DNA of 64,000 bases, taken from assembly GCA_022825895.1 (NCBI GenBank), contig JAJDVX010000013.1, positions 124,001 to 188,000 on the forward strand. Reading direction: 5' to 3'. The DNA is from Chloroflexota bacterium. Lineage in GTDB: Bacteria > Chloroflexota > UBA11872. The notes under the pieces are model-generated. The model had not been told where the DNA came from. It saw only the letters and a program-made list of their open reading frames with translations, and did not search any database. Positions 47,466-50,519 of this stretch are shown here, piece by piece. The first letter of the stretch is position 1. Every line of letters begins with the position of its first letter. A program made the translations under genes and the position numbers.

Positions 47466-47807
47466 ATGAACCGCCGCAACCGCCTGCGCCGGGCTGCTGA
47501 TATCGCGCGTGTCCGTTCACGCGGCGCGAAGGTCGTAACCCGGCCGCTCGTGTTCTTTATGGCGCCGGGCCAGTCGGAAGCGCCGCGAGTGGCGGTACCG
47601 GTCTCCCGGCGCTTTGGGTCGGCCGTGCGGCGCAACCGCCTGCGGCGTCGAATCCGCGAAGCCTTGCGCTGTCAACTGCCGGACCTGCCAGCCGCGCTGG
47701 ACATTGTGGCGCTGCCGCGCCAGCGGGCGGCGTTGGCGGCGTCAGAGGAACTGGCAGCGGCCGTGCGGCACGCCCTACGTCGATCCCAGGCGCGGCTGGC
47801 CGGATGA
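47466..47807 (+). CDS. rnpA: Ribonuclease P protein component
   Basis: The product is 113 aa. RnpA signature residues occur in [20 protein letters not shown] and the RNR motif [20 protein letters not shown]. It assists the RNase P RNA in 5' tRNA maturation. Its stop overlaps the yidD start. Length and basicity are typical. Confidence 0.96.
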
Positions 47808-48013
47808 AGGCCGTGGCGCTGGGACTGATCCGGACGTACCAGCGGTGGGTGTCGCCGGCGTTCGGGTCGGTGTGCCGGTATGAGCCGGCGTGCTCGCAGT
47901 ACGCGTATGAGGCGGTGGAACGCTACGGCGTGATCCGCGGAACCCTGATGGCGGTGCGGCGGCTGGCGCGCTGCCACCCCTGGCACGCCGGAGGCTACGA
48001 CCCGGTCCCCTAG
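47804..48013 (+). CDS. yidD: Membrane protein insertion efficiency factor YidD
   Basis: The product is 69 aa. Family motifs: [39 protein letters not shown] and [17 protein letters not shown]. The three conserved Cys are present. YidD is a small membrane-associated helper of YidC. It overlaps rnpA by four bases and precedes yidC by 15 nt. Confidence 0.97.
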
Positions 48014-48028
48014 GGCCACGGCAGTCCC

Positions 48029-49648
48029 ATGGAAGCTATCCCGAACACCTGGCAGACCTGGGCCGTCGACCCGCTGAGCGACGCGCTGACGCTGATCCAC
48101 GACGCGGTGGGCAGCTACGCCATCGCGATCGTGCTGTTCACGGTGCTGATCCGGCTGCTGATGATTCCGCTGACGCTGAAGCAGATCACCTCGCAGCGAA
48201 AGATGCAGTTGATCCAGCCGGAATTGGAGAACATCCGCAAGCGCTTCAAAGGGGATCGGCAGGCGGTCTCGGAAGCGACGATGAAGTTGTACAAGGAACG
48301 CGGCGTCAACCCGATGGCAGGGTGCCTGCCGATCTTCATCCAGTTGCCGGTGCTGCTGGCGCTGTACGGAGGCATCCTGACGCTCAGCAGCCGCGGGCTC
48401 CTGAACGAGCAGTTCCTGTGGTTCAACCTGGCGCGCGAAGACTCGACGATCCAGGTAATCGGCGACGCCGCGCCCACGGAGCCGGTGGACGTGGTGATCG
48501 CGACTACGGATCTGCCGACGCCGCTGGAGTCGTCGCTGGCGGTGTCGTTCACACAGTTCGCGGCCAATTACCAGTTCCGTACGGACGTGGTGGACGCCGA
48601 GGCCGCGATCGCTCTGCTGAGCGATGGGACGGCGGCGGCGATCTTTCTCGACAACGAGGCGGATCTGAGCCGGATGCCCGCGGGAACTGACGAAATGCGC
48701 CTTGTGCAGGCGGCGGCGTTCCTGGTGGAACGAGACCGGGCGGCCACGCGTCTGACGGTCGATCAGGTTGAAGGAATCCTGCGTGGCCGGATTGTGAACT
48801 GGGCGGATCTGGATGCGGGGGTGGGTCCGATCGTGCTGCACGGGTTGAAGGACGACCTCAGCGCCCCGACATTGCTGGAACAGATCGTGTTGAACGGCGA
48901 TCCGATCCAAGTTCCCATCCGCGAGCACAACAGCGTGGACGACTACTTCAATGCGCTCCGGGCGGAACCAGGGTCGCTGGGCGTCTCGCCGCCGATGCGG
49001 ACGGATGACATCCGGATGCTGAACATCGAGGCGCGCGGGGCCGACCGTGCCTATCCGGCGCTGGCGGACGTCCTGGAGGACGGGCGCTACGCGTTGGCCC
49101 GTGACGTGTATGCCTACTGGGGTCCGGCCACCGATTCGACAAAGACCTACCTGCGGGACTGGTGGAACAGCGGCCAGGGGCAGGAGGCGGCGCAGGTCGC
49201 GGGCTTTACACGGCTGCCCGCGAACTTTGACCTGTTTGCGTCGGGCGGGTTCTATATCTCGGTTCTGGCGCTGCTGGCAGGCGCGTTCCAACTCATACAA
49301 GCGCGAATGATGGCGTCCAGTACCGCGACCGGACAGGCGGCGACGATGAACCGGGTGATGCAGTTCATGCCGATCATCGTGGTGGTCTTTGCCTGGACAT
49401 TCCAGGCGGGCCTGGTGGTGTACTGGGTGATTTCGAGCATTATTGCGATCGTTCAGCAATACTTCACGACGGGGACCGGGAAGCTGTTTCCTGCCCACTG
49501 GCCGATGGCGCGCGACGTGATGGGAGAGCATCAAGCGAAGGTGGAAGCAGCCAAGGCCAAGGCCGAGGCGACAGAGACCGAGTCGAAGCCCGAGACAACG
49601 ACCCGCCCACGACGCAGGCGGCGACGACGGAGGAGACGCGGTGGCTAA
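48029..49648 (+). CDS. yidC: YidC/Oxa1 membrane insertase with an inserted PstS-like substrate-binding domain
   Basis: The product is 539 aa. Residues 1-135 are YidC: YAIAIVLFTVLIRLLMIPLT with the groove Arg42, KMQLIQPELENIRKRFKGDR, NPMAGCLPIFIQLPVLLALY and LLNEQFLWFNLA. Residues about 405-480 resume the Oxa1 core (GGFYISVLALLAGAFQLIQ, MNRVMQFMPIIVVVFAWTF, GLVVYWVISSIIAIVQQYF), followed by a very basic tail. Between them, about 270 residues (DNA about 48434-49243) resemble a phosphate-binding PBP: LTVDQVEGILRGRIVNWADL, then YALARDVYAYWG and SGQGQEAAQVAGFTRLP. This insertion is in the outer-face loop before the third core helix. Both YidC halves look intact, so insertase function is expected; the PBP role is unknown. 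The genes around are the standard rpmH-rnpA-yidD-yidC-jag cluster. Confidence 0.9.
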   Translation: MEAIPNTWQTWAVDPLSDALTLIHDAVGSYAIAIVLFTVLIRLLMIPLTLKQITSQRKMQLIQPELENIRKRFKGDRQAVSEATMKLYKERGVNPMAGCLPIFIQLPVLLALYGGILTLSSRGLLNEQFLWFNLAREDSTIQVIGDAAPTEPVDVVIATTDLPTPLESSLAVSFTQFAANYQFRTDVVDAEAAIALLSDGTAAAIFLDNEADLSRMPAGTDEMRLVQAAAFLVERDRAATRLTVDQVEGILRGRIVNWADLDAGVGPIVLHGLKDDLSAPTLLEQIVLNGDPIQVPIREHNSVDDYFNALRAEPGSLGVSPPMRTDDIRMLNIEARGADRAYPALADVLEDGRYALARDVYAYWGPATDSTKTYLRDWWNSGQGQEAAQVAGFTRLPANFDLFASGGFYISVLALLAGAFQLIQARMMASSTATGQAATMNRVMQFMPIIVVVFAWTFQAGLVVYWVISSIIAIVQQYFTTGTGKLFPAHWPMARDVMGEHQAKVEAAKAKAEATETESKPETTTRPRRRRRRRRRRGG

Positions 49649-50519
49649 CGATGCTGGCGCCGGCGACGGCGTGATCGTGACCGGCAGTTCGGTGGAAGAC
49701 GCGGTGAAACGCGCGCTGCTGCAATTGAACGTGACGCTGGATGAGATCGACGTGGACGTGATCAACTCAGGGTCGCGCGGCGTGCTGGGCATGGGCCGGG
49801 AAGACGCGCGGGTACGGGTGCGGGTACGAAGCCAGCCGTATTCAGAAGACGAAGAGGACGAGGATCAGGACAAGGCCGTGGCCGAGGAGGCCGAAGCTGA
49901 AGCCGACGTGCCAATCGCGGCGGAACGGCCCCAGGTTGAGGCCGAGCCCCACGACGAGCCGGCCGCTAAGACGCCGCCGCCGGTCGCCGAGCCGATGACC
50001 GAAGGGGCACCGAGCACGCCCTCGCCTCCGGCCGTCCGGCGTCCGCGCGGCGAGCTGTTGGAGTCAGGCGAGGACCTTGAGAACGAGGCCGAAGAGCTGC
50101 TGGAGAGCCTGCTGGACCGCATGGGGTTCGTGGCGGATTTTGACCTCGTGTCGGACGAGCCGCTGGCGTACAACATCGTGGGCGACGAGGACTTTGGGCG
50201 GCTGATCGGTCGCCAGGGCGAGACCCTGCGCGCGTTTGGGTACCTCGTGAACCTGATGCTCGGGCGTCGCCTTGGTCGCCCCTGTCGGGTGACTGTGGAC
50301 GTGAATGGGTATCGGCAGCGGCGGGCGGACCAACTGGCTGAACTTGCGGAAACGCTGGCGGACGAGGTGAGGGACACGCAGGAGCCGATCACACTGGAGG
50401 CGATGCCGGCCAACGAACGGCGGCTGGTGCATGTGGCGCTGGCGGACGATGAGGACGTGCGCACGTACAGCATCGGCGAGGGCGACGAGCGCCGCGTCGT
50501 CATCAGCCCCAGGGCCTGA
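49641..50519 (+). CDS. jag: Jag/KhpB RNA-binding protein (Jag_N-KH-R3H)
   Basis: The product is 292 aa from a GTG overlapping the yidC stop by 8 nt. The N-terminal Jag domain (VIVTGSSVEDAVKRALLQLN, GSRGVLGMGREDARVRV) is followed by an acidic, Pro-rich linker of about 90 residues, then KH (LIGRQGETLRAFGYLVNLML) and R3H (MPANERRLVHVALADDEDVR) domains. KhpB binds RNA, often with KhpA, and affects cell division and envelope synthesis. The usual downstream mnmE/mnmG are not next to it here. Confidence 0.95.
   Translation: MANDAGAGDGVIVTGSSVEDAVKRALLQLNVTLDEIDVDVINSGSRGVLGMGREDARVRVRVRSQPYSEDEEDEDQDKAVAEEAEAEADVPIAAERPQVEAEPHDEPAAKTPPPVAEPMTEGAPSTPSPPAVRRPRGELLESGEDLENEAEELLESLLDRMGFVADFDLVSDEPLAYNIVGDEDFGRLIGRQGETLRAFGYLVNLMLGRRLGRPCRVTVDVNGYRQRRADQLAELAETLADEVRDTQEPITLEAMPANERRLVHVALADDEDVRTYSIGEGDERRVVISPRA

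Follow-up and report, generated by a model that had tools for sequence, protein, structure and literature searches.

A YidC protein whose conserved core is divided by a binding-protein domain is encoded in a 64,000-nucleotide stretch of a Chloroflexota genome (hereafter, the window). The insert of about 267 residues (139-405) is predicted to have a PstS-like, two-lobed fold of the type II periplasmic binding protein (PBP) class, and it occurs at the same place in all 19 genomes of the family. Selection has kept the domain although key ligand motifs are lost, and it has therefore probably acquired a different function. Protein contacts on the outer face of the membrane are the role that we tentatively favor.

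Both halves of the YidC core are intact

The yidC gene (48029-49648, +) has an ATG start and encodes 539 aa. Residues 1-138 (48029..48442, +) form the N-terminal core, comprising in order an amphipathic start, TM1, a cytoplasmic hairpin, TM2 and an FLWFNLA segment. Residues 406-490 (49244..49498, +) form the C-terminal core, with TM3, a cytoplasmic loop, TM4 and TM5 assigned from Pfam and hydropathy, and the following cytoplasmic tail (49499..49645, +) ends in an arginine run that is present in 19/19 family sequences. The Pfam family 60KD_IMP matched the protein in two stretches (E = 7e-50; 169.6 bits for the whole protein, curated cut-off 35), each of which exceeded the cut-off singly in the genome search (127.4 and 48.4 bits), in line with the intact core halves noted in the preliminary description of this locus. 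The NCBIfam model yidC_oxa1_cterm also matched the 539-aa protein (1.1e-55), and phmmer aligned core residues 7-138 with the solved YidC 3wo6 (YidC 2; E = 8.2e-30). Arg42 in TM1, which was kept in 19/19 sequences, corresponds in the alignment to Arg366 of the E. coli protein (chain 4utq), the arginine of the hydrophilic groove. The Pfam profile search of the window genome (94% complete) returned this single YidC match and no second one, and there was one full-length match per genome across the 19 family genomes. As the only YidC detected in its genome, the protein is predicted to serve as the membrane insertase.

The surroundings are those of the conserved rpmH-rnpA-yidD-yidC-jag cluster, as initially reported, and the neighbors were confirmed by Pfam: rpmH (L34; 47299..47433, +; 1.9e-21), rnpA (47466..47807, +; 1e-23), yidD (47804..48013, +; 6.9e-31) and jag/khpB (49641..50519, +; Jag_N, KH and R3H). 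The GTG start of jag lies within the end of yidC, and this 8-base overlap (49641-49648) suggests translational coupling of the two genes.

The insertion is real and shared by one family

The inserted domain with its linkers (48443..49243, +) was delimited by Pfam, profile, hhalign and model evidence. In an alignment with YidC of the sister family and of other Chloroflexota, it starts directly after the conserved FLWFNLA segment, past TM2, and ends directly ahead of GGFYIS, where TM3 begins. Of the earlier boundaries (136-405), the start is better placed near residue 139. By hydropathy, membrane segments are confined to the parts preceding residue 120 and following residue 400, and no hydrophobic segment was found inside the insert. 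With the core topology of monoderm YidC, as given in the nomenclature table of PMC8675477, the TM2-TM3 loop would be extracytoplasmic; homology and hydropathy both favor the outer placement proposed at the outset.

To reveal the distribution of the insertion, the whole order (24 genomes) was searched with the full-length profile, which matched approximately end to end, with the insert in the same place, in all 19 family genomes. All five genomes of the sister family were without it, and there the profile matched as two short pieces, or one; the sequence from G022 reaches a contig edge, with its YidC loop still readable and short. At the level of the class (41 genomes), matches to the insert profile at E ≤ 1e-12 came solely from the same 19 genomes, and no relatives of the insert were found in viral contigs. 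Sixteen loci, all in Chloroflexi/Chloroflexota MAGs, were recovered from named genome contigs; these contigs had several naming styles, and one of them, OY282448.1, is a single chromosome contig of 3.0 Mb. Quick trees of core and insert agreed on the main splits (two genera and the close g1 group) and differed at some inner forks. The in-frame join claimed for the window was found unchanged in all 19 genomes, so the insert is not confined to one assembly, and no loss was seen among these genomes of two genera. We infer a single origin of the insertion in the ancestor of the family.

Three aligned sister-family YidC sequences carry, in the stretch joining TM2 to the FLWFNLA segment, an additional 22-29 residues that include cysteines (L022 859-1848, -; L023 1495-2469, +; L026 919-1887, -).

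The insert has a predicted PstS-like fold

The PBP-type character of the insert, as first described, is borne out by several comparisons. Pfam PBP_like_2 (PF12849) matched residues 147-374 (48467-49150, +) at E = 7.1e-10 and 39.5 bits (curated cut-off 27). The first description had likened the insert to a C-terminal lobe; the PBP type stands, and the extent does not, since the match covers profile positions 2-259 of 267 and hence both lobes almost completely. When the inserts were scanned one by one (E ≤ 1), 19/19 matched this family (best 2.1e-18). The PstS model TIGR02136 of NCBIfam was also matched by 19/19 inserts at E ≤ 1 (best 1.3e-16), with weak scores for the window protein (13.6 bits) and for its insert (15.6 bits), both below the cut-off of 206.6. 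A profile built from the 19 inserts only retrieved solved phosphate-binding proteins (best 4gd5, 1.4e-8, positions 15-248), and hhalign of the insert profile with 27 stand-alone Chloroflexota binding proteins gave a probability of 99.2 (E = 6.6e-20, 230 columns).

The AlphaFold2 model of the insert had a pLDDT of 86.0 and a pTM of 0.81, from an alignment of 46 rows (19 inserts and the 27 stand-alone proteins) in which the latter steer the prediction toward the PBP fold; the insert-only sequence evidence is independent of those 27 rows. Foldseek against the PDB (best E = 2.2e-16) returned phosphate-type binding proteins, some named putative, in all of the first 38 rows. The best 50 rows comprised 40 such proteins and 10 LysR-type regulators or effector domains (CcmR, OxyR, CynR, BenM), whose fold is also of the type II PBP class. 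The predicted fold is thus of the PBP type, as anticipated, and not an unrelated one. The TM-scores were 0.31-0.68 when normalized to the query, with the best for 4jwo (0.68), and these modest values perhaps reflect an open arrangement of the lobes. Prediction of the full-length protein from the 19 family sequences gave a poor model, which was discarded (pLDDT 46, pTM 0.28).

Two motifs of the ligand site are missing from the inserts

Ligand-site motifs were compared with those of the 27 stand-alone proteins, a set selected for domain length out of the 36 distinct places that 41 fetched loci represent. The Ser-Gly-Thr motif is present in all 27, as well as in the 9 fetched stand-alone places outside this set, and in 0/19 inserts; six inserts (g2) retain the Gly-Thr of the triad, preceded by isoleucine or valine. 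An aligned G-S/T pair after strand 2 is found in 26/27 stand-alone proteins and again in no insert. The first-strand GS is a less telling motif: it is present in 19/27 stand-alone proteins and in 0/19 inserts, but the TT of the inserts at this position also occurs in 7/27 stand-alone proteins.

Conservation among nine chosen inserts of the 19 was 0.71, 0.41, 0.35, 0.52 and 0.59 for cleft loops A to E, which were placed by secondary structure and alignment rather than coordinates, compared with an insert mean of 0.62. Loop A is the exception to the trend of variable loops. The hinge reached 0.78 and the linkers 0.66-0.67, slightly above the mean. The insert has no signal or lipoprotein anchor of its own. 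Elsewhere in the window genome, a separate PstS-type protein (L033) with intact ligand motifs adjoins a gene for a binding-protein-dependent ABC permease.

These motif patterns point to a loss of ligand binding by the insert. Phosphate sensing, one of the functions first proposed for it, is unlikely, because Ser-Gly-Thr and the G-S/T pair are found in none of the 19 inserts. Client capture, the other function first proposed, is possible. A changed pocket is possible, given that loop A is more conserved than the mean and loop E is near it.

Among the stand-alone proteins with a PBP_like_2 domain, L070 (1507-2235, +; a frame of 292 aa) is without the first two ligand motifs and has kept Ser-Gly-Thr. 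It forms a long branch in the tree of inserts and stand-alone proteins.

Selection and origin of the insert

The insert is under purifying selection, weaker than that on the core. Mean dN/dS values (Nei-Gojobori) were 0.066 for 11 close g1 sequences and 0.130 for 6 of g2, compared with 0.042 in both groups for the N-terminal core, 0.019 and 0.023 for the C-terminal core, and 0.141 and 0.367 for the C-terminal tail; L014 and L015 are outside these means, and the values are approximate as some synonymous distances are high. Between g1 and g2, identity was 46% in the insert and higher in the two halves of the core (73% and 86%), and 76 of the 269 insert alignment columns are invariant among the 19 sequences.

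The GC3 of the insert (0.828) falls between the values for the two parts of the core (0.913 and 0.788), and no recent import is evident from composition. A recent copy of the resident PstS was rejected as a source, as the inserts form a separate, long-stemmed clade and, in three family genomes, the resident PstS clusters with the PstS of other class members. That tree was a quick one with long branches, in which 34 of the 46 rows were included (7/19 inserts and all 27 stand-alone proteins). A donor was not found among 80 picked genomes, in 10 of which (distant Chloroflexota families) the best stand-alone matches occurred at E ≤ 1e-5; the 15 class members among the 80 had no stand-alone match at this level.

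A second, unrelated insert in the same loop

We surveyed 301 Chloroflexota genomes, 292 of which had a YidC match, for split YidC matches, and 13 genomes with several or weak hits among the matches listed were re-examined. Among these 13, a new domain-size in-frame insert was seen solely in the three genomes of genus g106 (G183, G246 and G169), which are all those of the genus in the set; the survey covers this one phylum and inserts of at least about 100 aa. The sequence from G080 is interrupted by runs of N, and those from G256, G262 and one site in G228 are fragmentary. The g106 inserts have 173-174 aa (L058 1771-2289, +; L059 1774-2295, +; L060 988-1506, -) and lie in the same TM2-TM3 loop. 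YidC matches were obtained from 14/16 genomes of the order to which g106 belongs, and the other 11 of these have no such insert.

By hhalign, the g106 insert is unrelated to the PBP insert. It looks beta-rich by eye, and neither a Pfam match above cut-off nor a credible PDB match was obtained; its sole PDB match (E = 0.89) was taken as chance. With two unrelated domains found at this site, the YidC TM2-TM3 loop would seem open to repeated domain gain.

Possible roles of the inserted domain

We consider the following course of events the best explanation. A PstS-type substrate-binding domain would have been placed in the extracytoplasmic TM2-TM3 loop, after FLWFNLA, in the ancestor of the family. 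The domain would then have lost key ligand motifs while its fold, hinge region and linkers were kept. It may now serve as a static contact module for proteins on the outer face, whether client segments emerging from the YidC groove, Sec partners such as SecDF, or both. Its role would then resemble that of P1, an unrelated domain of E. coli YidC. Protein contacts are suggested because the domain is conserved and folded, is without the usual ligand motifs and sits on the outer side of YidC, an essential insertase. The window genome has two adjacent SecD/SecF-type frames. We hold that a captured, motif-depleted domain works as such a client or translocon contact module with a confidence that falls a little short of even.

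The insert may instead be passive decoration, tolerated in a permissive loop and conserved only because its misfolding would disturb the essential core. We regard this as a possible reading, somewhat against our expectation. It would fit the higher dN/dS and the lower g1-g2 identity of the insert relative to the core, and the same loop takes an unrelated domain in g106 and the 22-29 extra residues in the three sister-family sequences. Purifying selection on the insert is nevertheless strong, the domain has not been lost in any of the 19 genomes of two genera, the hinge is well conserved, the linkers score slightly over the insert mean, and 76 alignment columns of the insert are invariant.

A more active version of the contact module, in which the captured binding protein would open and close on the outer face like a clamp, gripping client peptides or a new ligand and thereby gating insertion, with the TM2-TM3 loop as a repeated site for outer modules, seems to us unlikely. 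Also unlikely is a ligand sensor that tunes insertase activity in response to phosphate or another small anion. Its PstS-type fold, the fairly conserved loop A and the TT shared with some stand-alone proteins would be in keeping with a sensor; against it, Ser-Gly-Thr and the G-S/T pair are missing from every insert, variability is greater in loops B, C and D, and the genome has a motif-intact PstS-type protein beside an ABC permease. An assembly or annotation artefact, such as a chimeric contig or a frame error, is refuted by the identical in-frame join in 19 genomes, the 16 named contigs including the 3.0-Mb chromosome and the agreement of core and insert trees on the main splits, and no point in its support was found.

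Comparison with known systems

YidC is near-universal, and among the titles and abstract openings listed from the open PMC literature we found no described YidC with a binding-protein domain, in line with the preliminary description. One paper naming both Pfam families assigns them to separate lipoproteins. The P1 domain of E. coli YidC has a fold known as a beta super-sandwich. According to PMC7618853, P1 has a cleft that may bind unfolded chains and makes contacts with SecDF and clients, a large P1 deletion leaves the insertion of tested proteins working, and the role of the outer domain is unsettled even in E. coli. The gain of an unrelated, well-known fold at another YidC loop is a natural experiment on how outer domains contribute to the core, and the binding-protein fold is here seen leaving transport for the protein-insertion machinery.

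The window YidC shares its core sequence, groove arginine, TM order and rpmH-rnpA-yidD-yidC-jag cluster with monoderm-type YidC/SpoIIIJ (3wo6), which has a short TM2-TM3 loop in the place of the 267-residue domain. With E. coli-type YidC it has in common a large extracytoplasmic domain on the insertase; however, P1 lies between the extra TM1 and the core (nomenclature table, PMC8675477) and so joins TM1 to TM2 in six-TM YidC, whereas the insert follows the second core TM and has a different fold. The g106 YidC (L058-L060) is alike in having a domain-size in-frame insert in the same loop, but that insert is shorter and unrelated. The fold and sequence profile are those of PstS and other PBP_like_2 proteins; unlike PstS, the domain is without a signal or lipoprotein anchor, has lost two ligand motifs and is embedded in a membrane insertase.
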